From a virus, in IMG/VR virus record IMGVR_UViG_3300008339_000124, positions 1 to 42,424 of that record: a stretch of DNA of 42,424 nt; one strand, written 5' to 3'. Positions 17,092 through 29,689 of the stretch are shown piece by piece (positions within the stretch are counted from its first letter, which is position 1; each line of letters begins with the position of its first letter). A model generated the notes under the pieces. It was not told the origin of the DNA and searched no databases. It was given only the letters and a program-made list of their open reading frames with translations. Both the position numbers and the translations under genes were made by a program.

Positions 17092-18423
17092 ATGTTATTA
17101 AATGAAGAAGTACAAAGAAAGTGGGCACCAGTCCTTGAACACGCAGATTTGAGTCCAATCAGAGATGCTGTTCGCAGAAACGTCACTGCTGTTGTTCTAG
17201 AAAATACGGAAAATGAACTCCGTAAGGCTGGATCAATGGTCGGTGGTCAACAGCTGCTGGGCGAAGCTGCTCCAACCAACGCAACAGGTTCTGCTGTTGA
17301 TAACTTCGATCCAGTTCTGATTTCGCTGGTTCGCCGTGCAATGCCAAACCTGATCGCTTACGATATCTGTGGCGTTCAGCCAATGACTGGTCCTACTGGT
17401 CTGATTTTCGCAATGCGTTCGCGTTACGCAAACCAAACTGGTGACGAAGCTTTCTACAACGAAGCTAACACCGCATACGCAACCGTTGTTGGTGGTGCTA
17501 ACACTCTTGGTGACAAGCACGTTGGTGGTTTCCCAGGCAACACAACCACAGGTACAGCTAACCTGGCTGAAGAAGGCATCTATAACTTCGGTGATGGTAT
17601 GTCAACAGCTCAGTCCGAAGCTCTGGGTACATCTGGCAACACTGCATTCCCAGAAATGGCATTCAGCGTTGAGAAGGTCACTGTAACTGCTAAGAGCCGT
17701 GCTCTGAAAGCTGAGTACACCCTAGAACTGGCACAAGACCTGAAAGCAATTCATGGTCTGGATGCTGAAACCGAACTGTCGAACATTCTGTCTACCGAAA
17801 TTCTGGCAGAAATCAACCGTGAAGTTGTTCGCACAATCAGCGTAACTGCTGAAAAAGGTGCTACCGAAGGTACAACCACAGCTGGTGTGTTCGATCTTGA
17901 CACCGACTCGAATGGTCGTTGGTCCGTTGAGAAGTTCAAAGGTCTGATGTTCCAAATCGAGCGCGAAGCTAACCAAATTGCGAAGGGTACCCGTAGAGGG
18001 AAAGGTAACATCATCATTTGCTCGTCCGATGTTGCATCGGCTCTGCAAATGGCTGGTGTTCTGGATTACACCCCAGCTCTGAACAGCAACCAACTGAACG
18101 TTGATGATACAGGCAACACCTTCGCTGGTGTCCTGAATGGTCGTCTGCGTGTCTACATCGATCCATATGCAACTGGCAACTACATGGTTGTTGGTTACAA
18201 AGGTGCCTCGGCATTCGATGCTGGTCTGTTCTACTGCCCATACGTTCCGCTGCAAATGGTCCGTGCCGTTGATCCTTCGAGCTTTGCTCCTAAGATCGGC
18301 TTCAAGACCCGTTACGGTATCGTTGCTAACCCATTTGCACAAGGCACCACAGATGGTCTGGGCGCTCTTGTCGTGGACAGCAACAAGTACTACCGCCGTG
18401 TCCTTGTTCGCAACCTGATGTAA
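17092..18423 (+). CDS. 23: Major capsid protein gp23-like
   Basis: The 443-residue precursor (T4 gp23 is 521) shows the conserved VRRAMPNLIAYDICGVQPM and GPTGLIFAMRSRY blocks, EMAFSVEKVTVTAKSRALKA, and the C-terminal PFAQGTTDGLG. A QQLLGE-AAP sequence at 53-61 matches the (I/L)-X-E cut site of the gp21 protease, so mature protein probably starts at Ala59 (in T4 the cut is after residue 65). The codon for Glu58 is at 17263-17265. Codon use is strongly biased, as expected of an abundant protein. A strong hairpin terminator follows 30 bases after the stop. Confidence 0.97.
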   Translation: MLLNEEVQRKWAPVLEHADLSPIRDAVRRNVTAVVLENTENELRKAGSMVGGQQLLGEAAPTNATGSAVDNFDPVLISLVRRAMPNLIAYDICGVQPMTGPTGLIFAMRSRYANQTGDEAFYNEANTAYATVVGGANTLGDKHVGGFPGNTTTGTANLAEEGIYNFGDGMSTAQSEALGTSGNTAFPEMAFSVEKVTVTAKSRALKAEYTLELAQDLKAIHGLDAETELSNILSTEILAEINREVVRTISVTAEKGATEGTTTAGVFDLDTDSNGRWSVEKFKGLMFQIEREANQIAKGTRRGKGNIIICSSDVASALQMAGVLDYTPALNSNQLNVDDTGNTFAGVLNGRLRVYIDPYATGNYMVVGYKGASAFDAGLFYCPYVPLQMVRAVDPSSFAPKIGFKTRYGIVANPFAQGTTDGLGALVVDSNKYYRRVLVRNLM

Positions 18424-18452
18424 TTAAAACAATAACAGGTGTTGTAACATTC

Positions 18453-18480
18453 AGAGGGAGCAGAAATGCTCCCTCTTTTT
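18453..18480 (+). terminator. Rho-independent terminator after gene 23
   Basis: A perfect 10-bp stem AGAGGGAGCA / TGCTCCCTCT with a GAAA tetraloop is followed by a run of five T. It ends the virion block before the early promoter at 18485. Confidence 0.95.
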
Positions 18481-18484
18481 GCAC

Positions 18485-18512
18485 TTGACAAATCTAAAAA
18501 TCCTGGTATAAT
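18485..18512 (+). promoter_or_regulatory. Sigma70-type promoter (perfect -35 and extended -10)
   Basis: TTGACA at 18485-18490, 16-base spacer, TATAAT at 18507-18512 with an upstream TGG (extended -10). It lies directly behind the gene 23 terminator and would start early transcription of 18591 onward toward uvsY. Confidence 0.85.
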
Positions 18513-18559
18513 TGGGATGTTCTCCTTCATATATTATGGTTCTATGTATATTATGAGAT

Positions 18560-18567
18560 ACTAAATA
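18560..18567 (+). promoter_or_regulatory. Possible late promoter variant (ACTAAATA)
   Basis: ACTAAATA lies 24 bases before the ATG at 18591, next to an early promoter. This would give the tube-like gene both early and late transcription. Function inferred from recurrence of CTAAATA in gaps. Confidence 0.35.
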
Positions 18568-18590
18568 CTGTATAACATAAGGAATCATAT

Positions 18591-19136
18591 ATGAGTCTAG
18601 TTAATAACCAACCCGTCAATAATAACTTTCTATCACCACTTGGCTACAAGTTTCATATTGATAGAATGCCAACGTTTAATTTCTTTGTACAGGCTGTTAA
18701 AGTACCAAATATTAACCTACCAGCAGCCTTGCAGACCACTCCATTCTCTGTCATGCCGTTCCCTGGTGATCACCTACAGTTTGGTGTTCTAGATGTTATA
18801 TTCAAGATGGACGAAGCATTACTTACCTACACAGAGATCTTCGACTGGATGCAAGCCCTTGGCTTCCCAGAACAGTACGAACAATACCGTGCTGGTACGA
18901 TTCCTACCAATTCATCTACAGGTAAAAGAAACACAGTTTCAGATGCTTCTTTGACAGTCCTGTCTTCTGCGATGAATCCGATATTCATCTACAAGTTCCG
19001 TAATCTGTTCCCAACCTCAATTGGTTCTTTCAACTTCGATACCCGTGATTCTGAAGTAACTTACATCACTTGCGAAGTTCAATTCAAGTTTGGTTTCATG
19101 ACCGTTTCAAGAGACCCACAAGAATACGGGGCTTGA
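18591..19136 (+). CDS. Tail tube-like or tail completion protein (gene 3 slot)
   Basis: The 181-residue protein lies between 23 and uvsY, the position that in marine T4-like phages is often annotated as gp3 (tail completion) or as a gp19-like protein. The sequence has FLSPLGYKFHIDRMPTFNFF, VPNINLPAALQTTPF, PFPGDHLQFGVLDVIFKMDE, and IFDWMQALGFPEQYEQY, then SFNFDTRDSEVTYITCEVQFKF. This beta-rich pattern with the VPGI- and GFP-type motifs fits the tube fold shared by gp19, gp48 and gp54. A virion tail role is well supported. Whether it is gp3, a tube initiator or another tube-like protein is not settled here. RBS AAGGAA lies 11 bases upstream. Confidence 0.75.
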   Translation: MSLVNNQPVNNNFLSPLGYKFHIDRMPTFNFFVQAVKVPNINLPAALQTTPFSVMPFPGDHLQFGVLDVIFKMDEALLTYTEIFDWMQALGFPEQYEQYRAGTIPTNSSTGKRNTVSDASLTVLSSAMNPIFIYKFRNLFPTSIGSFNFDTRDSEVTYITCEVQFKFGFMTVSRDPQEYGA

Positions 19137-19161
19137 TTATATCATAGAAATATGTTATAAT
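19133..19161 (+). promoter_or_regulatory. Sigma70-type promoter of uvsY with hairpin in the spacer
   Basis: TTGATT (19133-19138), 17-base spacer, TATAAT (19156-19161). The stretch 19135-19162 is an inverted repeat with 12-base arms around GAAA and one mismatch. The AGAAATATGT-TATAAT core is shared with the promoters at 29083 and 37620. The predicted start lies about 12 bases from the uvsY ATG. Confidence 0.75.
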
Positions 19162-19180
19162 CAAATCTTTGGGAATTGCT

Positions 19181-19615
19181 ATGCGTATTGATGAAATTCA
19201 AGCACTTTGGGAAGCAGACGCTAATATAGACCGTATGGAACTTGGTAATGAAGCTATCAAGATTCCTAAGCTGCACTCGAAGTATTACAAGATCTATATC
19301 GATGAACGTCTTGCCTTGCGTAAGGCACAGGCTGATTATAAGGTCTTGCTCAAAGATAAGCAAGTCTACTACATGGGTGGTATGGACAAAGCAGAACTTG
19401 ACGAGCGTGGATGGGAACAAAACCCTATACGAGTTCTCAAAGCCGACCTACCAACCTATATTGATGCAGACCCAGATATTATCAAACAAGCCCTGAAGAT
19501 CGGATATCAGCAAGAGAAGGTAGACTTCCTGGAAAGTGTTATCAAGACTCTGCGTGAAAGGGGTTTCAATATCAAGTCTGCTATCGAGTGGGCGAGGTTC
19601 CAAGTTGGTGGTTAA
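19181..19615 (+). CDS. uvsY: UvsY-like recombination mediator
   Basis: ATG at 19181 gives 144 residues (T4 UvsY is 137) and the typical start MRIDEIQALWEADANID; a TTG at 19169 is rejected. The centre has KIPKLHSKYYKIYIDERLAL and a KADYKVL-like helix, and the C-terminus FLESVIKTLRERGFNIK, all characteristic of the family. In T4, UvsY loads the UvsX recombinase onto gp32-coated single strands. The ATG lies just downstream of its own promoter, with only GGGA as a weak ribosome site. The stop overlaps the uvsW start (TAATG), so both recombination genes are coupled. Confidence 0.94.
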   Translation: MRIDEIQALWEADANIDRMELGNEAIKIPKLHSKYYKIYIDERLALRKAQADYKVLLKDKQVYYMGGMDKAELDERGWEQNPIRVLKADLPTYIDADPDIIKQALKIGYQQEKVDFLESVIKTLRERGFNIKSAIEWARFQVGG

Positions 19616-21069
19616 TGAGTGATTTGGTAAAGCTAGAACATTACAGTGAAACGTTTTTGAGGGTTCGATGTGAACCCTCTATCATGTATGAAATGTGCGA
19701 TGCCTTCACCTTCATGGTTCCTGGGGCTAAGTTCTCACCGAAATACAAAAACAAGATATGGGACGGCAAGATACGCCTACTCAACACCACGACAGGCTTG
19801 ATATATCGCGGTCTGGTCGATAGTATTGTACGCTTCTGTGATGATAAAGAATACCCCGTCATAGTGGATCCCTTGTTCGCAGCAGACGAGTTCTCGCTAC
19901 ACGAATTGGAACAACTGGTAGAAAGTCTGAAGCTTCCATTCAAACCGCACGACTATCAGCTCGATGGTGTGGTTCATGCGATAAGAAACAAGAGAAGTCT
20001 TTTGATTTCGCCTACTGCTTCTGGTAAGTCGCTGATGATCTATCTGATCACCAGACACTATCGCAAGAAGACGTTGATCGTAGTACCATCGATATCCCTG
20101 GTCCACCAGCTCTACTCTGACTTTGCTGAGTATGGATTTGATTCTGAAAAGTATGTCCATAAGGTCTATCAGGGACAAGACAAAGTAACTGACAAACCCG
20201 TGGTCATTACCACATGGCAGTCTATTGTTGATATGCCGAAGAAGTGGTTTGAGTCTTACGATGTTGTCATTGGTGACGAGGCGCATAACTTTAAAGCCAA
20301 GTCGCTGGTTAGTATCATGTCGAAGATGGAAAACATCGGATACCGCTTCGGCTTCACGGGTACGCTGGACGGCACACAGACCAACAAGCTGGTGCTGGAA
20401 GGGTTGTTTGGTAAGATGAATCAGGTGATCACCACTGCCGAAATGATCGACCAGAAACACGCATCAGACTTCATCATCAAAGCTATTGTGCTTCTGTACA
20501 AAGAAGAAGAAAGAAAAGTTGTTGCCAAAATGACCTACCCGCAAGAGATGGACTTTTTGATATCGAATGCAGCACGAAATAAGTTCATCAAAAACCTGAC
20601 GCTTTCTTTGAAAGGTAATACACTTTTGCTGTTCCAATTTGTAGACAAACACGGCAAAATACTGTATAATATGATAAAAGAAGAAGCTGAAGCGCAGGGG
20701 CGTAAAGTGTTCTTTATTCATGGTGGTGTTGCTGGTGATGAGCGTGAAGCTATTCGCCATATTGTCATGAAAGAAAAGAATGCAATTATCATCGCATCAT
20801 TCGGAACAATGTCTACGGGTACAAACATTCCGAACCTGGACGATGTGATATTTGCAAGTCCATCGAAGGGCAAGATTAGAAACCTACAGTCTATTGGTCG
20901 TGTGTTGCGTAAAGCAGATGGTAAGACCATCGCCACACTCTATGACATTGCAGACGATCTTGCCTGGAACGATAAAAAGAACTATACGCTGCTGCACTTT
21001 GTCGAGCGAATGAACATCTACGCACAAGAGCAGTTTGAATACAAAACATACACAGTGAAAATAACATGA
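19615..21069 (+). CDS. uvsW: UvsW-like DNA/RNA helicase
   Basis: ATG at 19615 overlaps the uvsY stop and gives 484 residues (T4 UvsW 503). An upstream in-frame TTG/GTG region is rejected. The N-terminal domain has FSPKYKNKIWDGKIRLL as in T4 UvsW. The SF2 core has motif I SPTASGKS (K138), motif II DEAH (from D221), FTGTL, and motif VI QSIGRVLRK. UvsW unwinds R-loops and branched DNA, helping switch from origin-dependent to recombination-dependent replication. A TATAAT at about 20665 lies inside the gene and has no -35. The next gene starts within its stop (ATGA). Confidence 0.96.
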   Translation: MSDLVKLEHYSETFLRVRCEPSIMYEMCDAFTFMVPGAKFSPKYKNKIWDGKIRLLNTTTGLIYRGLVDSIVRFCDDKEYPVIVDPLFAADEFSLHELEQLVESLKLPFKPHDYQLDGVVHAIRNKRSLLISPTASGKSLMIYLITRHYRKKTLIVVPSISLVHQLYSDFAEYGFDSEKYVHKVYQGQDKVTDKPVVITTWQSIVDMPKKWFESYDVVIGDEAHNFKAKSLVSIMSKMENIGYRFGFTGTLDGTQTNKLVLEGLFGKMNQVITTAEMIDQKHASDFIIKAIVLLYKEEERKVVAKMTYPQEMDFLISNAARNKFIKNLTLSLKGNTLLLFQFVDKHGKILYNMIKEEAEAQGRKVFFIHGGVAGDEREAIRHIVMKEKNAIIIASFGTMSTGTNIPNLDDVIFASPSKGKIRNLQSIGRVLRKADGKTIATLYDIADDLAWNDKKNYTLLHFVERMNIYAQEQFEYKTYTVKIT

Positions 21070-21491
21070 AGCTATGGGTTATCAAGACAAATAATATAGA
21101 GATTATCTGCGAGATCGTCAAGCGTGGATTATTCTCTATCGCAGTTAAAAACCCAGTTCGTATCCTGGACACAGCTGCTACAGGGAAACTATCTCTTGGA
21201 TATACTGTCTATAGTCCATTCACTACCAATGAAAATATCTCTATAAATAGGATGAACATTGTCTCAATCAGTGAACTCAAAGGTCAGCATGTTGAGTTCT
21301 ATAACAAGACAGTCACCCTACTAAACACCCTAGTTATCCCAGAGCTTGATGGGGAAATCGGGAAGTTTGCAATAGAAATAGACCAAGCCATGAAACGTTT
21401 TGCTGATCGAAAGGAGTATCTTGAAGATGATGCTGACAGCGATGTGGTGATAGTTAATAACAAAAAACCACCTAGGAATAAGCTTAATTGA
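21066..21491 (+). CDS. Sm-like (LSm/Hfq-type fold) phage protein
   Basis: The 141-residue protein starts inside the uvsW stop. Its first 90 residues follow a pattern seen in many T4-like phage Sm-like proteins: ELI-like strand (IEIICEIV), VKNPVRIL, a KLSLGYTVYSPFT strand-loop, then INRMNIVSISEL and an FYNKTV end. The C-terminal half is a helical and acidic tail ending in Lys/Pro/Asn. Sm folds bind RNA or build rings, but no partner is evident. It sits between uvsW and gene 55 in a tightly overlapping operon. The Sm assignment is from recalled family patterns and is moderately certain. Confidence 0.6.
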   Translation: MKLWVIKTNNIEIICEIVKRGLFSIAVKNPVRILDTAATGKLSLGYTVYSPFTTNENISINRMNIVSISELKGQHVEFYNKTVTLLNTLVIPELDGEIGKFAIEIDQAMKRFADRKEYLEDDADSDVVIVNNKKPPRNKLN

Positions 21492-22138
21492 GTACACATT
21501 ACGTAGATAATAAAAAAATGTATGAGGCGATTGTAGAGCACAAAAAAGCAGTCAAGGCTGCTTTAGATGCTGGAGAAAAACCGCCTAGAATACCAGAGTA
21601 TGTTGGAAGTTGCTTTTTGATGATCGCTAAAAACGTAGTCAAGAAGCCTAACTTCTACAACTATCCATTCAAGGAAGAAATGGTTTCTGATGGAATAGAA
21701 AACTGCTGTATGTATTTTCACAACTTCGATCCGAATAAGACCCAGAACCCATTCTCTTATTTCACGACAATTATCTGGTACGCATTCCTTAGAAGAATCC
21801 AGAAAGAAAAGAAACAGCTTTACATGAAGCAAAAGTTGTTCGAGCATTCCGTCACATTCAACGAGATGTTCGATGTGTCCGACCAGGACATGGATGAAGG
21901 TATCACAATTGCCTTCACTACAAGCAGCGATAAGATGAATGATTTTACAACAACCTACGAAGCCTGGATGAAGAAAAAGCACCGTAGACGAGAACGCCAA
22001 GTTGACGCACTAGAAGACAGCGCAACCGAAGCACATTTTGAATTAGAGGATTTAATAGATGGAACAGAGATCGAACCACCAGATTCCTGGGATGATACAG
22101 GACTGGGCGAAACAGGCAACGAATCGGAAGCTTCCTGA
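21488..22138 (+). CDS. 55: Late sigma factor gp55-like
   Basis: A TTG start at 21488 (TTGA overlap with the previous stop) is chosen because STHYVDNKKMYEAI aligns with the N-terminus of T4 gp55 (YNYVNNKELLQAI). The ATG at 21518 would remove that. The 216-residue protein (T4 185) has the core FYNYPFKEEMVSDGIENC, FDPNKTQNPFSYFTTIIWYAF and RRIQKEKKQ. gp55 directs host polymerase to TATAAATA late promoters, which are present here. The clamp-binding C-terminal SLDFLYE of T4 is not visible. The tail is acidic and polar. The end overlaps the ORF at 22059. Confidence 0.93.
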   Translation: MSTHYVDNKKMYEAIVEHKKAVKAALDAGEKPPRIPEYVGSCFLMIAKNVVKKPNFYNYPFKEEMVSDGIENCCMYFHNFDPNKTQNPFSYFTTIIWYAFLRRIQKEKKQLYMKQKLFEHSVTFNEMFDVSDQDMDEGITIAFTTSSDKMNDFTTTYEAWMKKKHRRRERQVDALEDSATEAHFELEDLIDGTEIEPPDSWDDTGLGETGNESEAS

Positions 22139-22232
22139 ACACATAAGATATAATTATGTTCAGGTGCTGACGGTTATCCGTGAATTTTGTGATACCGCTA
22201 TTCGTTCTTATAATAATGAAAGAAAAAAATGA
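22059..22232 (+). CDS. Small helical protein overlapping genes 55 and 47 (57 aa)
   Basis: This short frame starts at ATG 22059 after AGAGGA (22045-22050, 8-base spacing), overlaps the last 80 bases of gene 55, and ends in the ATGA shared with the gene 47 start. An internal ATG at 22092 is an alternative. The product is Lys/Arg-rich and helical (MIQDWAKQATNRKLPEHIRY, then VQVLTVIREFCDTAIRSY) and reads as protein-like, filling the gap that would otherwise be empty. A hairpin at 22134-22164 and a promoter for gene 47 lie inside it. No family is recognised. It is inferred from RBS, overlap and composition. Confidence 0.55.
   Translation: MEQRSNHQIPGMIQDWAKQATNRKLPEHIRYNYVQVLTVIREFCDTAIRSYNNERKK
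22134..22164 (+). repeat. Imperfect inverted repeat (hairpin) at the end of gene 55
   Basis: CCTGAA, bulge CA, CATAA pair with TTATG and TTCAGG around a seven-base loop, giving 11 pairs. There is no following T run, so it is not a typical terminator. It may affect RNA processing or attenuation between genes 55 and 47. Confidence 0.4.
22187..22214 (+). promoter_or_regulatory. Sigma70-type promoter before gene 47
   Basis: TTGTGA (22187-22192), 16-base spacer, TATAAT (22209-22214), 15 bases before the gene 47 ATG. The -35 is weak. Confidence 0.5.
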
Positions 22233-23293
22233 CATCAAAAATTGCCATGATAAACGACACTCACTGGGGTGTTCGCAACGATGATCAAAATTTCTCAGAA
22301 TATTTTAAACGCTTTTACGAAGGCGTTTTCTTTCCTACGCTTAGACGGCAGGGCATCAGCCGTATTTTCCATCTGGGTGATATTGTTGATCGTAGAAAGT
22401 ATATTAATTTTGCTTCTGCGAAACGACTGAGAGAAGACTTCATTGAAATGTGTGTAGCCAATGGTATTGAGCTGCACATCATTCTTGGAAACCATGATGT
22501 GTTCTATAAGAACACCAATGACCTGAACGCGATGGAAGAGTTGAACGTAGACAAGTACCCGAATGTATTTGTGTACAAAGACGCTACCGAAGTGATGATC
22601 GATAATCTGAAAGTGTTGCTTATGCCCTGGATCTGTTCTGGCAACTATGAACATGCAATGAAGGCAATTGAAACAACAGACGCACAGGTTCTGTTTGGTC
22701 ACCTGGAACTGTCTGGCTTTGCCATGTATAAAGGTAATGTCAACGACCACGGTATGTCGCCAAAGGTATTTGAGAAATTCGATCAGGTCATGACAGGTCA
22801 CTACCACCACAAGTCGAGTTCTGGCAACATCAATTATCTTGGTGCGCCTTACCAAATGACCTGGAGTGACTACGGTGATGTGAGAGGGTTTCATATCTAC
22901 GACACTTCCAACCGAATCCTTGAGCATATCGTTAATCCATTCGAGATGTTCCATAAAGTTACCTACAACGATGAAGGTAAAAGCATGGAAGATGTTCTGA
23001 TTGACTGTGAGCCATACCGAGATAACTATGTGAAGTTGGTTGTTGAGAAAAAGACCAACCCCTACTGGTTCGATATGCTGATCAATAAGTTTGAGGCTGC
23101 TGGCGTTAAGGACTTGAAAATACTTGATGATGGTGATAAAATTGACCTTGACGATGATGATTTTGTCGATGAAGCACAAGACACTTTGACTATTTTGAAC
23201 GGCTTCATTGACCAGATGGATATCAAAGGTAACCGTCAGGATTTGACGGAGTTACTTCGTGACCTTTACAGAGATGCTGCGAGTTCTGAATGA
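22229..23293 (+). CDS. 47: Recombination nuclease subunit gp47-like (Mre11 family)
   Basis: The 354-residue protein (T4 gp47 is 339) has the calcineurin-like phosphoesterase motifs in order: INDTHWG (8-14), HLGDIVDRR, LGNHDVF, then FGHLELSG and TGHYHHKS. These bind two Mn ions. With gp46 it forms the T4 Mre11-Rad50 nuclease that resects ends for recombination-dependent replication and helps degrade host DNA. The start overlaps the small ORF (ATGA). The end overlaps the gene 46 start (ATGA at 23290), which ensures balanced synthesis of the pair. An acidic segment with several Asp occurs near the C-terminus. Confidence 0.97.
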   Translation: MTSKIAMINDTHWGVRNDDQNFSEYFKRFYEGVFFPTLRRQGISRIFHLGDIVDRRKYINFASAKRLREDFIEMCVANGIELHIILGNHDVFYKNTNDLNAMEELNVDKYPNVFVYKDATEVMIDNLKVLLMPWICSGNYEHAMKAIETTDAQVLFGHLELSGFAMYKGNVNDHGMSPKVFEKFDQVMTGHYHHKSSSGNINYLGAPYQMTWSDYGDVRGFHIYDTSNRILEHIVNPFEMFHKVTYNDEGKSMEDVLIDCEPYRDNYVKLVVEKKTNPYWFDMLINKFEAAGVKDLKILDDGDKIDLDDDDFVDEAQDTLTILNGFIDQMDIKGNRQDLTELLRDLYRDAASSE

Positions 23294-25005
23294 TAACCTT
23301 TAAGAAAGTACGCTGGCGTAATTTTCTAAGCACTGGCGACTGCTTTACCGAAGTGCAACTGAATCGTTCCCACACCACATTGGTTGTTGGTGAGAATGGT
23401 GCTGGCAAATCGACTATCCTTGACGCTATATCGTTTGCTCTTTTTGGAAAGCCTTTCAGGAACGTCAAGAAAGACCAGTTGGTTAACAGCATCAACAACG
23501 GTAAGACTGTCGTTGAGTTGGAGTTTGCTATCGGCTCGAAAGAGTATATGATCAAGCGTGGAATCAAACCAGCAGTGTTTGAGATTTACCAGGACGGTGT
23601 TTTGGTAGACCAGAATGCTGCGGTCCGTGAGTACCAAGAGTATCTCGAAGACAACATCCTGAAGATGAATCAGAAATCTTTTGCCCAGATCGTTGTCATT
23701 GGATCCGCTTCCTATGTTCCGTTCATGCAACTTACCGCTGCACATCGAAGAGAAGTGATCGAGGATCTCCTTGACCTTCAGGTATTCAGCACCATGAACA
23801 CACTTCTGAAAGAGCGAATCTCTCAGAACAAACAGGACATTCAATCTACAGATCACAGCATCATGCTGGCTCAACAATATATCAAGTTAGTCAACGACAA
23901 CCTAGAAGCCATGAAACGTTTTGATGGTGAGAGCATCACCAAGCTTCAACAGAAGATTGACCAGGAAACCGAGAAAGCCAAAGATAAGATTCGATATGTT
24001 GACGAGATGAGGGGTAGGATTGCTCAGATCAAAGAAAGCCACAGTGAACGCTCAAGAATTGAGGGTGCTGCTAGGAGTGCCAGAGAGTATCAGAACAAAC
24101 ATGCACGGATAGCATCAAAACTGCAAAATGAAGTTGAGTTCCTGGAAAAGCATGTTGATTGTCCGACCTGTAAGCAAAATATCACAGAAGAGTTTAGGGC
24201 AAACACTATCAAAGAAAAAGAATCTATTATTATGGAGTCTATTTTAGAGATGGAAAAATGTGACCATGTGTTCGACAAAATCGAAGACGATCTGAATCGA
24301 TTTATTGAGGATGATAATGATATCGCTGCTATGGAAGCTTCGATTCATAATACGACTTTTGAAGCAAAGACCCATGCCAAGCTTGCCCAGACTTACATGA
24401 CCGAGATGGATAACATCAAGAATAGAACTTCTGTGGATCCAGTCGCTGAGTCACAGGCTAAAGCAAAAGAAAAAGAGTTGGCAGATCTTATTGAAAACAA
24501 GAAACAGATATTGAAAGATAAAGACACTCTTGAGACCGCATCACTTCTTCTCAAAGACGGTGGCATCAAAGCTAAGATTATCAAGCAGTATGTTCCTATC
24601 ATGAACAAGCTGATCAACAAGTATCTTGCATCGATGGACTTCTTTGTCCAGTTTGAATTGGACGAGAACTTCAGCGAGACCATCAAGTCCAGGTTCCGTG
24701 ACGAGTTCAGTTATGCATCATTCTCTGAAGGTGAGAAGACCAGAATCGATCTGGCACTACTTTTCACCTGGAGAGCCATTGCCAGAATGCGTAACTCAAC
24801 CACAACAAATCTGTTGATTCTGGACGAGATCTTCGATGGTGCTCTGGATAGTAGTGGTACGGACGAGTTCCTAAAGATCATCAATACCATCGATGGTGAC
24901 AACAATACTTTCGTTATCAGCCACAAGACAGACCAGATGTACGATAAGTTCCACAGCATTATTAAGTTTGAGAAGTACAAATCATTTTCAAGGATTGCAG
25001 CATGA
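23290..25005 (+). CDS. 46: Recombination ATPase subunit gp46-like (Rad50 family)
   Basis: The 571-residue protein (T4 560) contains Walker A GENGAGKST at 34-42, long coiled-coil regions on either side of a zinc hook CPTC (C291 and C294), the ABC signature FSEGEK at 478-483, and Walker B LLILDEIFDG with D512/E513, followed by a switch His (ISHK). This is the SMC-type layout of Rad50. It partners with gp47 in end resection and recombination-dependent replication. The start overlaps gene 47 and the stop overlaps the deformylase start (ATGA), so deformylase expression is linked to this complex. Confidence 0.97.
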   Translation: MITFKKVRWRNFLSTGDCFTEVQLNRSHTTLVVGENGAGKSTILDAISFALFGKPFRNVKKDQLVNSINNGKTVVELEFAIGSKEYMIKRGIKPAVFEIYQDGVLVDQNAAVREYQEYLEDNILKMNQKSFAQIVVIGSASYVPFMQLTAAHRREVIEDLLDLQVFSTMNTLLKERISQNKQDIQSTDHSIMLAQQYIKLVNDNLEAMKRFDGESITKLQQKIDQETEKAKDKIRYVDEMRGRIAQIKESHSERSRIEGAARSAREYQNKHARIASKLQNEVEFLEKHVDCPTCKQNITEEFRANTIKEKESIIMESILEMEKCDHVFDKIEDDLNRFIEDDNDIAAMEASIHNTTFEAKTHAKLAQTYMTEMDNIKNRTSVDPVAESQAKAKEKELADLIENKKQILKDKDTLETASLLLKDGGIKAKIIKQYVPIMNKLINKYLASMDFFVQFELDENFSETIKSRFRDEFSYASFSEGEKTRIDLALLFTWRAIARMRNSTTTNLLILDEIFDGALDSSGTDEFLKIINTIDGDNNTFVISHKTDQMYDKFHSIIKFEKYKSFSRIAA

Positions 25006-25511
25006 TATACAAGCTTTTACCCGAAAATCACGAAATGCTGTTTCAAGAGATGCAAAAATTTGATTTTGAAAATCCACCCTGCGACCCAGAGCAGCTGGCA
25101 CTCGATCTGATCGAAACTATGAGAGCCAACCAGGGAATAGGCTTATCTGCAAATCAAGTTGGTTTACCCTACCGTGTTTTTGTCATGGAAGGTAGCCCAG
25201 CATTCGTATGCTTCAATCCAAAAGTCGTGGCGGTCAGCTCTGGACTTGCCAAGATGCAAGAGGGTTGTTTATCCTACCCAGACTTTTGGATTGACATTAA
25301 ACGCCCACACACGGTTAAGGTTCGTTTTACTACCCCATCTGGTACTACCACAACCAAGACCTTTGATGAGTGGCACTGTCGATGTTTCCTACACGAACTA
25401 GACCACCTGAACGGAACCCCGTTCTACAAAAACGCAACTAATATGCAAATAGAAGCTGCCCGTAAACTCCGTACTAAAATAACCCGAAACAAGAAAAGGA
25501 TGCTAAAATGA
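25002..25511 (+). CDS. def: Peptide deformylase
   Basis: The 169-residue enzyme has all three metal-site motifs: GIGLSANQ (45-52, consensus GXGLAAXQ with Ser), EGCLS (87-91, Cys89) and HELDH (131-135). These ligate Fe or Zn and hold the catalytic Glu. It removes formyl groups from new proteins, which is needed for N-terminal Met removal. Phage deformylases are known in marine T4-like phages and are usually short and lack a C-terminal helix, which fits here. It overlaps gene 46 and ends in the start of the co-chaperonin gene (ATGA). The pair suggests support of protein synthesis and folding in infected cells. Confidence 0.96.
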   Translation: MIYKLLPENHEMLFQEMQKFDFENPPCDPEQLALDLIETMRANQGIGLSANQVGLPYRVFVMEGSPAFVCFNPKVVAVSSGLAKMQEGCLSYPDFWIDIKRPHTVKVRFTTPSGTTTTKTFDEWHCRCFLHELDHLNGTPFYKNATNMQIEAARKLRTKITRNKKRMLK

Positions 25512-25795
25512 ATGAACTAGCCAGAATGAATCATGTATTCCCGCTACACAAGCGTATTTTAATCAAAGCAAATGACGTACAAACCAAAACGCTTTCTGGT
25601 ATCATAGTTGAAAGTGGTACGGGTGATGAATCTCGAACCGCAACTGTGATCGAGTGTGGACCTGATGTAGAGCACGTCAAGCCAGGATACACCATCTATA
25701 TCATGTGGACGAAAGCCTTACCCGTCAGAATCAGTGGGCTAGACTATTCATTCATCAATGAAGAAGACGTTGTTGCAATTCTGGATAAGGTGTGA
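25508..25795 (+). CDS. 31: Co-chaperonin, gp31/GroES-like
   Basis: The 95-residue protein resembles GroES: N-terminal FPLHKRILIKANDVQTKTLSG, a mobile-loop region (SGIIVESGTGDESR) and the strand ATVIECGPDVEHVKPGY, followed by INEEDVVAIL at the C-terminus. T4 gp31 (111 residues) replaces GroES so that GroEL can fold the large gp23 capsid protein. This copy likely does the same for the capsid protein encoded upstream. It starts in the deformylase stop. An early promoter for the next gene begins inside its last codons (25773). Confidence 0.85.
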   Translation: MNELARMNHVFPLHKRILIKANDVQTKTLSGIIVESGTGDESRTATVIECGPDVEHVKPGYTIYIMWTKALPVRISGLDYSFINEEDVVAILDKV

Positions 25796-25801
25796 TATAA
25801 T
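25773..25801 (+). promoter_or_regulatory. Sigma70-type promoter with extended -10
   Basis: TTGCAA (25773-25778), 17-base spacer ending TGA, TATAAT (25796-25801). It overlaps the end of the co-chaperonin gene and drives the gene at 25822 and probably the tRNA cluster. Confidence 0.75.
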
Positions 25802-25806
25802 TCTTG

Positions 25807-25814
25807 TATAAATA
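25807..25814 (+). promoter_or_regulatory. T4-type late promoter in tandem with the early one
   Basis: An exact TATAAATA, five bases after the early -10 and only seven before the ATG at 25822. A transcript starting here would be essentially leaderless. Confidence 0.55.
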
Positions 25815-25821
25815 ATACACA

Positions 25822-26367
25822 ATGACTTTTTTAGTTGATACTCCATACACAAGATGTTTTATTCGTCAAGAATTTTTCTATGACGAAAAACGTGGTTATG
25901 GGGATTTTACTGAAGCCTATGTATTTGGTTTCCGAAGTGAACCGCAGCGAGTGCCTATGTTCCAGGTTATGCTTGCTAATGGAGCACAGTGGGCTAGAGT
26001 TCCGATACATATGATATGCAGTAAACCCTGTGATCCACTCCCCCTGGATGTTAGCGTTTGGTGGGACTGCTATAGTAGATATTGCACGGTTCATGAATTT
26101 GCTTTTCTAAGAAACCATGCGGTAAATTGCTATGGACGAGATAAACAACTAAGACGAGGCTCGTATCTATTCACAATAGATTGGGCTACTGGTGGCTTCA
26201 GTGAAATACCAGATCAACACAAGAATCATCATATAATTAGTTTAGAGTCTGGGCAGTGGGTGGCTTATCCTAACAATAAATTATTATGGCTTGATGATAG
26301 TTGGATAGAAGGCAAACCAAGTTTTGATTGGGTCAGCCCAAGTAAAGTTTATAGTGTAGAGGGTTAA
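25822..26367 (+). CDS. Conserved T4-like phage protein of unknown function
   Basis: The 181-residue protein starts with MTFLVDTPYTRCFIRQEFFY, followed by GYGDFTEAYVFGFRS and FQVMLANGAQWARVP. It has CSKPCDPLPLDVSVWWDCYS in the middle and an HHIISLESGQWVAYPNNKLLW segment near the end. I recall similar proteins of unknown function in marine T4-like phages, but no domain or active site is recognisable. There is no signal peptide or membrane helix. No Shine-Dalgarno motif precedes the ATG, and two promoters (early and late) lie very close, so the leader is extremely short. It heads the tRNA region. Confidence 0.75.
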   Translation: MTFLVDTPYTRCFIRQEFFYDEKRGYGDFTEAYVFGFRSEPQRVPMFQVMLANGAQWARVPIHMICSKPCDPLPLDVSVWWDCYSRYCTVHEFAFLRNHAVNCYGRDKQLRRGSYLFTIDWATGGFSEIPDQHKNHHIISLESGQWVAYPNNKLLWLDDSWIEGKPSFDWVSPSKVYSVEG

Positions 26368-26379
26368 TGCACACAATAC

Positions 26380-26455
26380 GCTGTCTTAGCTCAGTCGGTA
26401 GAGCACCTGCCTTGTAAGCAGGATGTCGTGAGTTCGATTCCCACAGACAGCACCA
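26380..26455 (+). tRNA. tRNA-Thr (UGU)
   Basis: A 76-base cloverleaf with acceptor GCTGTCT/AGACAGC, anticodon stem CCTGC/GCAGG with loop CTTGTAA (anticodon TGT), T loop TTCGATT and an encoded CCA at 26453-26455. It begins 12 bases after the previous gene. It reads ACA and other Thr codons. Confidence 0.97.
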
Positions 26456-26458
26456 AAT

Positions 26459-26532
26459 GCGTCCATAGTTTAACGGTAAAATGTGATCCTTCCAAGTTCA
26501 GGTCGTGGGTTCGACTCCCACTGGACGCTCCA
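26459..26532 (+). tRNA. tRNA-Gly (UCC)
   Basis: 74 bases with acceptor GCGTCCA/TGGACGC, anticodon loop CTTCCAA (anticodon TCC), T loop TTCGACT and encoded CCA. The anticodon stem TGATC/GTTCA has one U-U mismatch. It lies three bases after tRNA-Thr, so the two are probably cut from one transcript. Confidence 0.93.
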
Positions 26533-26538
26533 AACGAA

Positions 26539-26546
26539 CATAAATA
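26539..26546 (+). promoter_or_regulatory. Possible late promoter variant (CATAAATA)
   Basis: CATAAATA, identical to the site at 662, lies 23 bases before the methyltransferase ATG at 26569. It would allow late expression of that gene apart from the tRNAs. Confidence 0.4.
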
Positions 26547-26568
26547 CTTGACAATATTAGGAATTATT

Positions 26569-27204
26569 ATGTTATCCTTTAGTCAATTTATTAATGAAGA
26601 AACAAAACTTAACAACACCAGGAAAACCCAGGTAGCCACCACTGGTGGAACCTACGAGAAGACTGGTGTATATTTGAGTGATAAGCTTGAACCGAAGTCT
26701 AAGATTATTAGCATCGGTGCTGGTTTAGATCACACAAAGAAAGCATTGATGAAAGGTCTGGGTAAAGGTTATGTTGTTCATGACCACGAACCAAACCCAG
26801 AAGGACGTAAAGAAGCACCAGAGTATACAAACGCATCTAAGATACCAAAGAATGGTTATGATGCAGCAGTTTGCCATAATGTGTTGAATGTTGTAGAACC
26901 AAATGTTAGAGAGCATGTAATGCACTCCATATTCAACTCCATTAAGGAAGGTGGACACGCTATTATCGGCACACGAAAGTGGAAAGGTGATATCGAGAAG
27001 AACAAGAATTCTGAACCCGCTGAAGAAAAGAAAGCGATGTGGGTTAAGAAAGGTTCTGAAAGATCCTACCAAAAAGGGTTTGATGGTGATGAACTGAAAG
27101 ACTATGTTCATGACTATGCGAAAAGAAACGGACACCAGGTTGAGGTTAAAAAGTTAACTGGTATCGCAGCTTCTGGTGTTCATGTTAAGTTATTAAAAAA
27201 ATAG
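26569..27204 (+). CDS. Class I SAM-dependent methyltransferase-like protein with possible capsid-targeting N-terminus
   Basis: ATG at 26569 gives 211 residues; upstream in-frame codons run through two tRNA genes and are rejected. The core looks like a class I methyltransferase: SKIISIGAGLDHTKKAL (SAM loop), VVHDHEPNP as motif II region, and DAAVCHNVLNVVEP as motif IV, followed by IKEGGHAIIGTRKWKGD. The pattern is similar to predicted methyltransferases of DNA-modification clusters, but the substrate is unknown. The first residues MLSFSQFINEE resemble the T4 capsid-targeting sequence (MKTYQEFIAEA) that is cut after (I/L)-X-E. It may therefore be packaged and injected. That is inference. A GGAATT-type weak ribosome site is present. 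Confidence 0.65.
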   Translation: MLSFSQFINEETKLNNTRKTQVATTGGTYEKTGVYLSDKLEPKSKIISIGAGLDHTKKALMKGLGKGYVVHDHEPNPEGRKEAPEYTNASKIPKNGYDAAVCHNVLNVVEPNVREHVMHSIFNSIKEGGHAIIGTRKWKGDIEKNKNSEPAEEKKAMWVKKGSERSYQKGFDGDELKDYVHDYAKRNGHQVEVKKLTGIAASGVHVKLLKK

Positions 27205-27207
27205 TAC

Positions 27208-27295
27208 GCGCCTGTAGAGGAATTGGGAGACTCTCTGGATTTAGGTTCCAGCGTCCGAAAGGGCACTGTCGGTTCGACTCCGACCAGGCGTACCA
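27208..27295 (+). tRNA. tRNA-Leu (UAG)
   Basis: 88 bases with acceptor GCGCCTG/CAGGCGT (one G-U), anticodon stem CTGGA/TCCAG with loop TTTAGGT (anticodon TAG), a long variable arm (class II, as expected of Leu), T loop TTCGACT and encoded CCA. It starts four bases after the methyltransferase stop. Confidence 0.95.
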
Positions 27296-27296
27296 T

Positions 27297-27325
27297 TTGA
27301 TTAACAATAAGTTTTATGATATAAT
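27297..27325 (+). promoter_or_regulatory. Sigma70-type promoter inside the tRNA cluster
   Basis: TTGATT (27297-27302), 17-base spacer ending TGA, TATAAT (27320-27325), seven bases before tRNA-Arg. The start would fall near the first base of the tRNA. Confidence 0.7.
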
Positions 27326-27332
27326 AAGTTAT

Positions 27333-27409
27333 GCGCTCGTAGCTCAACTGGATAGAGCAACGGACTTCTACTCCGTTGGTTGTGGGTTCGACTCCTACCG
27401 AGTGCGCCA
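27333..27409 (+). tRNA. tRNA-Arg (UCU)
   Basis: 77 bases with acceptor GCGCTCG/CGAGTGC, anticodon stem ACGGA/TCCGT with loop CTTCTAC (anticodon TCT), T loop TTCGACT and encoded CCA. It reads AGA/AGG, a codon class that phage tRNAs often supply. Confidence 0.96.
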
Positions 27410-27417
27410 AATTATAT

Positions 27418-27494
27418 CGGAGTATAGCACAGCTTGGTAGTGCGCTTGCTTTGGGAGCAAGAGGTCCAAGGTTCGAATCCTTGTACTCCGACCA
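27418..27494 (+). tRNA. tRNA-Pro (UGG)
   Basis: 77 bases with acceptor CGGAGTA/TACTCCG, anticodon stem CTTGC/GCAAG with loop TTTGGGA (anticodon TGG), T loop TTCGAAT and encoded CCA. The CGG start is typical of bacterial tRNA-Pro. Confidence 0.96.
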
Positions 27495-27500
27495 ATTTAC

Positions 27501-27576
27501 GGGTCCATAGCTCATCTGGGAGAGCGCCAGCTTTGCAAGCTGGATGTGGTCGGTTCGAGTCCGACTGGATCCACCA
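27501..27576 (+). tRNA. tRNA-Ala (UGC)
   Basis: 76 bases with acceptor GGGTCCA/TGGATCC, anticodon stem CCAGC/GCTGG with loop TTTGCAA (anticodon TGC), T loop TTCGAGT and encoded CCA. The usual G3-U70 alanine identity pair is present: G3 of GGGTCCA faces T in TGGATCC. Confidence 0.96.
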
Positions 27577-27579
27577 AAA

Positions 27580-27664
27580 TGCGTGGATGTGCCTAAAGCA
27601 CATGTACCCAAGTAGCCCTAATTGAACAGGTGAACGAGGACTTGGAATTAACCGAGGGCGCGCA
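27580..27664 (+). ncRNA. Structured non-tRNA element in the tRNA array (candidate small RNA or tRNA relic)
   Basis: These 85 bases fill the gap between tRNA-Ala and tRNA-Ser and do not code or fold as a standard tRNA. The ends pair (TGCGT with GCGCA). ATGTGC/GCACAT forms a hairpin with loop CTAAA at 27587-27603. GCCCT (27615-27619) pairs with AGGGC (27655-27659) to form a longer rod. There is no CCA end, no T-loop motif and no anticodon arm. It is likely transcribed with the tRNAs. Whether it is a stable RNA, processing element or decayed tRNA is unknown. Confidence 0.4.
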
Positions 27665-27902: not shown

Positions 27903-27978
27903 GTGCCTATAGCTCAACGGTTAGAGCAGAGGACTCATAATCCTTTGGTTCTAGGTTCGAATCCTAGTGGGCGCACCA
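27903..27978 (+). tRNA. tRNA with CAU anticodon (Met, or Ile decoding AUA)
   Basis: 76 bases starting directly after the stop of the small ORF. Acceptor GTGCCTA/TGGGCGC (two wobble pairs), anticodon stem GAGGA/TCCTT with loop CTCATAA (anticodon CAT), T loop TTCGAAT and encoded CCA. The D-loop and the TTTGG after the anticodon arm recall bacterial tRNA-Ile(CAU), whose C34 is changed to lysidine. Elongator Met is the alternative. It is not initiator-like. Confidence 0.92.
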
Positions 27979-27986
27979 ATACTTAA

Positions 27987-27994
27987 ACTAAATA
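27987..27994 (+). promoter_or_regulatory. Possible late promoter variant (ACTAAATA) before the tmRNA
   Basis: ACTAAATA lies eight bases before the first paired base of the tmRNA acceptor piece and within a small palindrome AAACT-AAAT-AGTTT. It may be a start or processing site. Function is inferred. Confidence 0.3.
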
Positions 27995-28063
27995 GTTTAT
28001 ATGGTTGTATGAAGGAACGAGAAGGTTTCTTGGACACGGGTGCAAATCCCGTCTGCTCCACCA

Positions 28064-28093
28064 AAAATGTTTTCTGAGTAAAATATTTTTGAT
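28064..28093 (+). other. Intervening segment of the permuted tmRNA precursor
   Basis: The 30 bases between the CCA and the GGGGCAG form an AT-rich hairpin, AAAATGTTTT pairing with AAAATATTTT around CTGAGT (one G-U). In known permuted tmRNAs such a segment is removed, leaving two RNA pieces. Confidence 0.8.
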
Positions 28094-28141
28094 GGGGCAG
28101 TTTCAGATTCGACAGGGAAAGATATCCGACTGGACAACCAG

Positions 28142-28165
28142 TGAGGCGACTGACTCAATCAGCGC
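28142..28165 (+). other. tmRNA pseudoknot PK1
   Basis: TGAG (28142-28145) pairs with CTCA (28154-28157). The loop bases GCG and CTGA pair with TCAGCGC (28159-28165), leaving one A bulged. The knot ends 14 bases before the resume codon, the usual place for PK1. Confidence 0.85.
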
Positions 28166-28179
28166 AAACCAAAGTAATC

Positions 28180-28218
28180 GCAAATGACGATAACTACATT
28201 CAGGCACTTGCTGCTTGA
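28180..28218 (+). other. tmRNA tag reading frame (ANDDNYIQALAA)
   Basis: Resume codon GCA at 28180 is followed by eleven codons and TGA (28216-28218). The tag begins ANDDNY, like ANDENY of E. coli, and ends ALAA, the ClpXP/ClpAP degron. The six bases before GCA (GTAATC) resemble AUAGUC of E. coli. Confidence 0.92.
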
Positions 28219-28278
28219 TCCAACTGTTCTTCCGAGTGGGTTTCTCAACGGAAGTGGTCGTCCTCTCCAGTAGAGGGC

Positions 28279-28313
28279 TATCAAAAGCATATTGACTTAG
28301 TATGTTTTTGATA
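28279..28313 (+). terminator. Hairpin at the 3' end of the tmRNA gene
   Basis: A 13-bp stem TATCAAAAGCATA / TATGTTTTTGATA (one G-U) with a nine-base loop. The T run is in the 3' arm rather than after it, so this may be a 3' end or processing hairpin, before the next tRNA, rather than a classic terminator. Confidence 0.5.
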
Positions 28314-28329
28314 ACAGGATAAGCAATTT

Positions 28330-28419
28330 GGTTCTCTAGCATAATGGTAATGCACCGAGCTTATACCTCGCACTCCAGATTAGAGGGTTATACAGGTTCA
28401 AGTCCTGTGAGAACCACCA
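28330..28419 (+). tRNA. Class II tRNA with UAU anticodon (Ile by anticodon)
   Basis: 90 bases with acceptor GGTTCTC/GAGAACC, D arm GCAT/ATGC, anticodon loop CTTATAC (anticodon TAT, codon AUA), a 20-base variable arm, T loop TTCAAGT, discriminator A and encoded CCA. The first anticodon-stem pair is a C-C mismatch. Long variable arms belong to Leu, Ser and Tyr tRNAs in bacteria, so an Ile anticodon here is odd. The charged amino acid cannot be told. Confidence 0.85.
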
Positions 28420-28426
28420 GAAACAT

Positions 28427-28501
28427 GCGCGATTAGCTCAGCGGTAGAGCAGTGCCTTTACACGGCGAAGGTCGGGGGTTCGAACCCCTCATTGCGTACC
28501 A
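28427..28501 (+). tRNA. tRNA-Val (UAC)
   Basis: 75 bases with acceptor GCGCGAT/ATTGCGT (two G-U), anticodon loop TTTACAC (anticodon TAC) on a TGCC/GGCG stem, T arm GGGGG-type with loop TTCGAAC, and encoded CCA. Confidence 0.93.
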
Positions 28502-28504
28502 AAT

Positions 28505-28580
28505 ACGGGTGTGATGGAATGGTATACGTATCAGACTTAAAATCTGAGTTTTGTGGGTTCGAGTCCCACCACCCGTACCA
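28505..28580 (+). tRNA. tRNA with UAA anticodon (Leu) but short variable loop
   Basis: 76 bases with acceptor ACGGGTG/CACCCGT, a Leu-like D arm with three-pair stem, anticodon stem TCAGA/TCTGA with loop CTTAAAA (anticodon TAA), a variable loop of only five bases, T arm GTGGG/CCCAC with loop TTCGAGT, and CCA. Bacterial tRNA-Leu normally has a long variable arm, so this form is unusual. Confidence 0.88.
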
Positions 28581-28593: not shown

Positions 28594-29079
28594 ATGGCTA
28601 TGTTTGATTATAAAACAAAAATTAATTTTGAAGAAGTAAAAGCTTACATAGAAGCCAATCCAAACTCAAAACTTTATATCGGCTGTGACTCTGAACGAGT
28701 TATAATCAAAGATGTTTGGTATGCTGATTACGCATCTGTTATTGTTGTCCACATTGGTGGTCGCCACGGTTGTCGTGTATTTGGTCAAGTAGATCGTGAG
28801 CGCGATTATGATCAAAACAAAGGTCGCCCACGTATGCGTCTGATGAACGAAGTTATTAAAGTGGCTGAACTATACATTAACCTTGGGAAAACCCTGGGTG
28901 AAGATTTTGAGTGCGATGTTCACCTTGACATTAACCCGAATGAGATTTATGGATCTTCTTGCGTTGTCCAGGAAGCTATTGGATACATTCGTGGTATGTG
29001 TAATGTCATACCGATGGTCAAACCACAGGCATGGGCTGCTACCCACTGTGCAGACCGTCTAAAAGAACTTCGCGCTTAG
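28594..29079 (+). CDS. YkuK-like (DUF458) RNase H-fold protein
   Basis: The 161-residue protein (or 159 from ATG 28600) has the family pattern: a strand YIGCDSE, then a VVHIGGRHGCRVFGQVDRE region, RMRLMNEVIKVAEL, a VHLDINPNEIYGSSCVVQEA segment with conserved Asp and Ser, and a KPQAWAATHCADRL end. YkuK-type proteins have an RNase H-like fold. Acidic residues D32-E34 (in CDSE) and the HLD region may bind metal. The substrate is unknown. It directly follows the tRNA/tmRNA array, so a role in RNA metabolism is tempting but unproven. Confidence 0.75.
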   Translation: MAMFDYKTKINFEEVKAYIEANPNSKLYIGCDSERVIIKDVWYADYASVIVVHIGGRHGCRVFGQVDRERDYDQNKGRPRMRLMNEVIKVAELYINLGKTLGEDFECDVHLDINPNEIYGSSCVVQEAIGYIRGMCNVIPMVKPQAWAATHCADRLKELRA

Positions 29080-29082
29080 CTA

Positions 29083-29111
29083 TTGCATATATCACAGAAA
29101 TGTGATATACT
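29083..29111 (+). promoter_or_regulatory. Sigma70-type promoter of the porin-like gene with a perfect spacer palindrome
   Basis: TTGCAT (29083-29088), 17-base spacer, TATACT (29106-29111). The spacer and -10 carry the inverted repeat TATATCACA-GAAA-TGTGATATA (29088-29109). The AGAAATGTGA-TATACT core aligns base for base with the promoters at 19133 and 37620. Confidence 0.75.
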
Positions 29112-29118
29112 GCATGAC

Positions 29119-29138
29119 ACGGTATGAAAAGATACCGT
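29119..29138 (+). repeat. Leader hairpin of the porin-like gene
   Basis: ACGGTAT pairs with ATACCGT around GAAAAG, near the predicted 5' end of the transcript. It could stabilise the message. It is followed by TTATTTTG rather than a clean T run. Confidence 0.5.
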
Positions 29139-29167
29139 TATTTTGTTGTTTAATTAAAGGAGTCAAA

Positions 29168-29689
29168 ATGAAACTGAAAATCGCTTTAGCTGTTCTTTTC
29201 CTCGCCTTTGCCGTGGGCACTGCTCACGCTGAAGATCGCCTAACCGCTGGATACACTCAGAAGGCTGTTGCCACTCTGAGCGACACCTGGGGTGTTGGTG
29301 TTGAGAAAGACTTCGGTGAACTAGGTGCAGCAACTGTTGTTGGTGACCTTGGTTTTACCAATGTTCTCAACGGCGCATTTGCAGATACCCTGTGGACCGC
29401 TGGACTTGGCGTTGAAGTTCCTCTGTCAGAATTGCTGAACCTTGAAGTTGGTGCTTCGCGTAGCTTCGTCAATGGTGGACAGGATTTCACCCAGTATCGT
29501 GCTGGTGTTGTTTATCAGGGCATCGCATGGCGTTTCGCTGGTGCAGCTGTAAAGGCTGACGGCGTAGACGTTTTCGCAGAAGCTTCCGCAGAACGCAAAG
29601 TCTTTGGTGACCTAGCAGTCGGTGTTGCTTCGAGCTTCGATCAGTCCGAATACTTTGCTACCACAGTATTCGCGTCCTACTCGTTCTAA
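29168..29689 (+). CDS. Secreted beta-barrel outer-membrane-like protein
   Basis: ATG at 29168 follows AAAGGAG. The 173-residue product starts with a clear signal peptide: KLK, a hydrophobic core LALAVLFLAFAVGT-like, and the AHA-E cleavage site after residue 21. The mature part has alternating hydrophobic and polar residues over about eight strands, with many Gly/Ala/Val and aromatic girdle residues, and ends in FASYSF, a C-terminal aromatic typical of barrels inserted by BamA. Phage-borne outer-membrane proteins can block superinfection or alter permeability. Which applies here is unknown. It has its own early promoter and terminator, so it is an independent, probably early, unit. Confidence 0.75.
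   Translation: MKLKIALAVLFLAFAVGTAHAEDRLTAGYTQKAVATLSDTWGVGVEKDFGELGAATVVGDLGFTNVLNGAFADTLWTAGLGVEVPLSELLNLEVGASRSFVNGGQDFTQYRAGVVYQGIAWRFAGAAVKADGVDVFAEASAERKVFGDLAVGVASSFDQSEYFATTVFASYSF

Follow-up and report, generated by a model that had tools for sequence, protein, structure and literature searches.

Is the tmRNA-like sequence in the tRNA cluster of this virus a genuine, working tmRNA gene, and what might a phage gain from carrying it? The window, by which we mean the whole stretch of DNA analysed, comprises the 42,424 bases of an IMG/VR virus record. A sequence-only reading had proposed that it holds a circularly permuted, two-piece tmRNA gene in a T4-like genome, with tmRNA finders as the means of checking this. 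Both ARAGORN and the Rfam models called a permuted tmRNA. ARAGORN placed the gene at 27971-28309 with the tag ANDDNYIQALAA. RF04321, the Rfam permuted-tmRNA model, matched at 28003-28218 with 125.9 bits (E = 2.2e-24), over its curated gathering score of 47, and the beta_tmRNA model RF01850 matched at 27969-28283 with 98.4 bits (gathering score 84). The acceptor half comes first and the 5' half second, with a segment in between, which is the permuted order. The 325-base tmRNA region had a folding z-score of -5.4, and none of 100 shuffled sequences was as stable. The tmRNA signal is not due to chance, and these results confirmed the gene as a well-preserved permuted two-piece tmRNA of a known kind.

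The carrier is a T4-like phage. By tblastn, its gp17 was 52-53% identical to those of cyanophages and of phage Melnitz, and its gp23 was 74% identical to that of Stenotrophomonas phage DLP_6, 68% to those of Sinorhizobium phages and 66% to that of Melnitz; its DNA polymerase matched PHROG 262. Together with the ARAGORN and Rfam calls, these T4-type core genes bear out the proposed setting of the gene. No photosynthesis genes were seen among 20 of the 24 listed ORFs of at least 180 residues in contig G002 outside the window, and a cyanophage sign was rejected. The parts of the gene and its neighbors are as follows.

27903..27978, + strand: tRNA-Met(CAT), the upstream neighbor
27988..27994, + strand: candidate late-promoter core CTAAATA of T4/cyanophage type, proposed from TAAATA enrichment, 6 bases from the pre-tmRNA start ATGGTTGT (28001)
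28002..28063, + strand: acceptor (3') piece of the tRNA-like domain, with long-helix strand TGGTTGT, T arm ACGGG-TGCAAAT-CCCGT, acceptor strand CTGCTCC, A73 and an encoded CCA
28064..28093, + strand: intervening segment, a hairpin that lengthens the acceptor stem in the precursor and, going by known permuted tmRNAs, would be removed on maturation
28094..28179, + strand: 5' half of the tRNA-like domain (GGGGCAG, GATTCGACAGGG), long-helix strand ACAACCA, pseudoknot 1 and a 14-base spacer
28146-28148 and 28150-28152 with 28160-28165, + strand: stem 2 of pseudoknot 1
28180..28218, + strand: tag reading frame GCA...TGA, giving ANDDNYIQALAA (ARAGORN)
28219..28312, + strand: 3' part of the coding piece, with stem-loops CTTCCG/CGGAAG and CCTCT/AGAGG, then a 33-base hairpin
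28330..28580, + strand: tRNA-Ile(TAT), tRNA-Val(TAC) and tRNA-Leu(TAA), the downstream neighbors
28594..29079, + strand: RNaseH_like (PF04308) protein, with AATAAATA before it; a homolog (66% amino acid identity) lies near the tmRNA of the related phage contig L059

The tmRNA is thus flanked by tRNA-Met and tRNA-Ile, and 11 tRNAs lie in this stretch. A peptide deformylase gene (PF01327, 121 bits; 25002-25511) near this cluster is a second translation-related gene. On visual inspection, the 195-residue protein encoded at 29102-29689 appears to have a signal peptide and to resemble outer-membrane proteins; searches of PHROGs, Pfam, PDB sequences and phage records gave no match within the limits applied.

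The structural details of the sequence-only reading were all found in place. CTGCTCC (28053-28059) pairs with GGGGCAG (28094-28100) at 7 of 7 positions, including a G3-U70 wobble, and is followed by A 28060 and CCA 28061-28063, read directly from the sequence. The long helix is formed by TGGTTGT (28002-28008) and ACAACCA (28134-28140), and the conserved GATTCGACAGGG is present at 28106-28117. The stem of an H-type pseudoknot ends at 28165, 14 bases ahead of GCA 28180, and the tag occupies 28180-28215 before TGA 28216-28218. The tag frame therefore has its resume codon, an AA end and a stop directly after ANDDNYIQALAA.

The alanine identity of tmRNA is set by G3-U70, A73 and CCA. As far as sequence can tell, all of these elements are present in the window tmRNA, and G3-U70 (13 of 13 sequences), A73 and CCA were invariant among its relatives. 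Around these fixed positions the stems have changed in a paired manner. Across 13 related sequences, both-side changes occurred at 18 of 27 pairs (shuffled mean 10.0), and the covariation score was 0.431 against a shuffled mean of 0.149, with none of 500 shuffles as high and slid registers giving 0.049-0.098. In the proposed register 89.7% of cells paired, against 42.7-48.9% in slid registers, a control biased toward the window structure, since the counted pairs were defined on the window itself. Pairing was complete (100% of cells) in the T stem and the acceptor stem and reached 84.6% in pseudoknot helix 4 and 78.2% in helix 5, the more distant rows being out of register in the pseudoknot. 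All eight pairs of the pseudoknot, which lies upstream of the resume codon, showed both-side changes. Between the window and the related contigs L032 and L059, the acceptor stem goes from CTG/CAG to CAT/ATG and the T stem from ACGGG/CCCGT to GGCGG/CCGCC, all as paired changes; in stem 2 of pseudoknot 1, three of six pairs differ between DLP_6 and the window, each on both sides. Given these compensatory changes in stems and pseudoknot, the window RNA looks to be under selection as a working tmRNA.

The T-loop of the window copy is TGCAAAT, where beta-type relatives mostly have TTCGATT or close forms. We considered TGC at this place as a defect or a phage mark and rejected both, as it is common in bacterial permuted genes, mostly of Caulobacterales among the 80 matches listed. 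G stands at that T-loop position in 83 of 120 viral sites, duplicates included.

Scored against the three permuted types, the window copy is nearest to the betaproteobacterial one (beta 98.4 bits, cut-off 84), with alpha just over its cut-off too (50.5, cut-off 50) and cyano below (34.1, cut-off 70). A bacterial member of RF01850 scores 251.5 bits, far above the window. Stenotrophomonas phage DLP_6 (beta 103.7, alpha 54.2), which is also the closest record by gp23, and Menderavirus Bhz51 (beta 92.1, alpha 47.8) are likewise beta-type over the cut-off with adjoining tRNA genes; their tmRNA cores are 62.8% and 68% identical to that of the window, with other tags and no TAAATA in place. IMG/VR record G003 is also beta-type (beta 121.1, alpha 88.2). 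Xanthomonas phage Rb1 scores best with beta, yet below its cut-off (68.8), and G004 is under both cut-offs (beta 50.1, alpha 47.8). Melnitz, Mosig and HTVC008M score best with the alpha model. Melnitz and the pelagimyophages similarly carry permuted tmRNAs in T4-like aquatic phages, according to passages of PMC9004378, and TATAAATA lies directly upstream of the Melnitz tmRNA. Melnitz differs from the window in its alpha type (alpha 106.7 bits, beta 25) and in having a glutamine riboswitch, as described in the same passages; in the window no riboswitch exceeded the Rfam gathering score.

The nearest tmRNA to the window copy is that of L032/L059, 82% identical over 144 aligned bases, with near-identical outer ends, a tRNA cluster and, in L059, the RNaseH_like gene. 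Its 3' part is mostly alike that of the window (28219..28312). The strong 33-base hairpin at 28280-28312 is largely kept there as well and is a candidate 3' end, terminator or processing site. For a tree of tmRNA cores we started from 188 ARAGORN calls, of which 63 failed the motif (those shown were alpha bacteria); of the 125 left, 107 were kept after removal of duplicates and limitation of alpha bacterial rows to 14. Support was 0.956 for the pair of window and L032 and 0.881 for the group of four phages that also includes Bhz51 and DLP_6, while that for the three-phage node was 0.006. With so few bacterial rows in this tree, statements on origin are unsafe.

These comparisons bear on whether the gene could be a neutral remnant of host origin that has no function in the phage, picked up for instance at an integration site. 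tmRNA genes are often integration targets of genomic islands, according to part of PMC11915505, and the locus differs in the strain contig L127 (below). Nevertheless, the gene is complete and covaries across diverged phages, and its nearest relative is a phage copy, whereas the best bacterial core among the few compared is 62% identical. The tmRNA is moreover identical in three contigs: the 62-kb contig G001 and the 64-kb contig G002 are 99.9-100% identical to the window, and 27971-28313 is unchanged in both. We therefore regard a remnant as highly improbable. Contig L125 stops ahead of the locus. Beyond the window, G002 encodes a 1194-residue protein with collagen repeats (PF01391; L219:181-3762), perhaps a fiber.

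It had also been suggested that the phage might steer tagging with a degron of its own choosing. In part this stood: exact matches to the tag ANDDNYIQALAA came from 2 IMG/VR contigs, both belonging to the window's phage species, and from none of 84,980 species genomes (contigs of at least 3,000 bases), making it private to this phage within the data searched. It is also unlike the three beta-type bacterial tags compared (ANDERFALAA, ANDEHFAIAA and ANDENFALAA), and the 113 phage tags called by ARAGORN comprised 67 distinct ones. Were relabelling the main purpose, the private tag would shift which protease or adaptor takes the product. However, the tag has an ordinary start (AND..Y) and an ordinary end (ALAA), which give no pointer to a changed destination; variation among phage tags is mostly mid-tag, 108 of the 113 end in [LMIV]AA, and the ALAA end is recognized by ClpX, as stated in part of PMC3985003. 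Relabelling as the main purpose is accordingly very unlikely in our view.

Some tag calls were unusual. For L032 and L059 ARAGORN starts the tag at GTA (VKANDSYYNQALAA); GCA, two codons on, gives ANDSYYNQALAA, of the same length as the window tag (12 residues). In nine further contigs (L019, L051, L060, L069, L083 and L092, also L021, L097 and L110) the tags were very long, for example ANAFKPEVTVPMSVFADQELVAA, or started late to give ADAELVAA, which reflects either unusual tags or a misplaced resume codon.

Taken together, the gene is best explained, and we think probably so, as a functional circularly permuted tmRNA of betaproteobacterial type, an accessory gene in a T4-like phage lineage that rescues ribosomes and tags the stalled products. 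Its transcription, processing, charging, tagging and benefit are steps that we infer. Host enzymes of tRNA processing would cleave the transcript into two pieces, acceptor and coding, that stay joined by pairing, and the host alanyl-tRNA synthetase would charge it via the G3-U70 pair. With host SmpB and EF-Tu the charged tmRNA would then enter ribosomes stalled on broken mRNA and provide A-ANDDNYIQALAA followed by a stop, and the tagged protein would go to ClpXP. SmpB gave no match in 10 phage records including that of the window, whose genome is incomplete, as against matches in 10 of 14 control genomes; the phage would therefore rely on SmpB from the host. Ordinary trans-translation with host SmpB most economically accounts for the alanine-identity pair, the pseudoknot, the spacer, the ends of the tag and the stop, all of which are kept. 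The related phage L059 keeps both the tmRNA in its tRNA cluster and a homolog of the nearby RNaseH_like gene.

A phage tmRNA might instead act as a decoy, binding host SmpB or ribosomes and dampening host trans-translation rather than performing it. Mycobacteriophage DS6A offers a precedent in its TLD-only tmRNA, and a similar molecule strongly inhibits tmRNA, as reported in a portion of PMC4131195. The window gene, however, keeps the coding part, namely pseudoknot 1 with compensatory changes, the 14-base spacer and an open tag ending ALAA, and L032/L059 retains the 12-residue tag ANDSYYNQALAA if read from GCA. We consider a decoy very unlikely. The earlier proposal of a phage-borne rescue RNA survives as to its role, ribosome rescue being the best explanation, but such an RNA is neither rare nor new.

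When in infection would rescue take place? Of the 25 TAAATA sites on the + strand of the window, 12 fall 7-60 bases ahead of a CDS start, in regions that together cover 5.5% of positions (binomial 2e-9); shuffles of those stretches gave an expectation of 3.2. The 43 CDS starts were hand-picked from the ORF list. The motif precedes gp23 (17092) and is missing before gp46 (23290), the DNA polymerase (34848) and gp17 (7189). One site lies 13 bases ahead of 28002. Going by parts of PMC3037559 and PMC9004378, both take TATAAAT as the late motif of T4. Across 81 distinct phage permuted tmRNA loci, TAAATA was present within 60 bases upstream in 33 (9.3 expected from mononucleotide shuffles), at -20..-5 in 29, and at -120..-61 in two; these deduplicated counts replace one of 51/112 that included near-duplicate phages. 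The bacterial control says little (0 of 43, with 0.3 expected), and the tmRNAs of DLP_6, Bhz51 and Rb1 are without the motif. TTGAC at sigma-70 spacing precedes TAAATA in 12 of the 81 loci, where the same box may thus serve as an early promoter; the window has no such box. A literature search, mostly of less than full texts, returned nothing on late promoters of phage tmRNAs. On a late-promoter reading that depends on a motif of 6-7 bases, CTAAATA at the gene's 5' end points to tmRNA synthesis (also) late in infection. Late synthesis would keep ribosomes free during the cutting of host and phage mRNAs. Most likely, the window tmRNA supplements host tmRNA late in infection together with host SmpB and ClpXP, and extra rescue capacity at that stage is our preferred guess as to the phage's benefit.

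The locus itself varies. Over 9,988 bases (17670-27657 of the window) the strain contig L127 and the window are 98.3% identical, and L127 is without the tRNA-Ser stretch. It departs from the window one base after tRNA-Met (27979), and the 560 bases up to its contig end (L127:10165-10724) are unrelated to the window; they contain two small ORFs (98 and 75 aa) and no tmRNA, and had no match among phage records. Hence the locus varies within the species, the tmRNA being absent there or further on, and the gene is not essential at this place. As the divergence begins upstream of the motif, a single variable segment contains both the motif and the gene; a break between tRNA-Met and promoter is as expected of a cassette of tmRNA and promoter. 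We tentatively suggest, with somewhat more doubt than conviction, that T4-like phages trade the tmRNA as a cassette with its own late promoter at the first bases of the precursor, and that RNA bearing a tag private to the phage adds to, or overtakes, the rescue pool of the cell late in infection.

The permuted form had been called noteworthy for a T4-like genome, a view that does not hold. The kind is already known, since 53 of 133 unique phage tmRNA structures are two-piece in the account given in part of PMC9004378, and our pattern scan of IMG/VR found at least 119 stretches, 104 of those listed being called permuted tmRNA by ARAGORN. Six of 10 named phage records were over the Rfam cut-off (DLP_6, Bhz51, Melnitz, Rb1, Mosig and HTVC008M), Bhz51 and Rb1 having entered the set because an earlier tmRNA search had found them; phiN3, phiM12, S-SCSM2R and S-CREM1 gave no match over it. 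Four of 40 gp46-related contigs searched (out of 80) were over the cut-off, namely G001 and G002, of the window's species, G003 and G004; four more gave weak matches only (19.5-22.5 bits), many records being fragments. Two of the genes over the Rfam cut-off have no tmRNA feature annotated at their place, KU682439.2 (DLP_6) 102838-103059 and KC465899.1 (HTVC008M) 145161-145370. Neither tmRNA nor ssrA is mentioned in the main text of the DLP6 paper (PMC5349666). What is new here is the window member, the unannotated DLP_6 gene, the variable locus and the promoter pattern.

As a clue to the host, which the permuted form had also been thought to give, it is weak. The type is beta-like, but the nearest named carriers infect Stenotrophomonas, and permuted tmRNA was over the cut-off in 3 of 80 sampled genomes (carrier included; weak in 55 more) in the order of the one beta-type carrier. 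Stenotrophomonas itself may have a one-piece tmRNA. A passage in the Marzo paper (PMC8928761) describes the phage copy as similar to a beta-class tmRNA of S. maltophilia, which would go against this. That carrier was the only beta-type match over the cut-off among 299 sampled Pseudomonadota, with weak matches in 200 more. Host assignment by tag and type was tried and is unsettled, the tag having no match in the species genomes.

The window gene adds a well-preserved beta-type member to the two-piece tmRNAs of phages, which are common and sometimes missed, as in DLP_6 and HTVC008M. The Melnitz authors proposed upkeep of hijacked machinery or early tagging of host proteins, as set out in part of PMC9004378, and the promoter pattern makes timing testable, early action as they propose against late expression as the window motif suggests. 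Tagging by a phage tmRNA, if demonstrated, would be direct evidence of phage investment in ribosome rescue.
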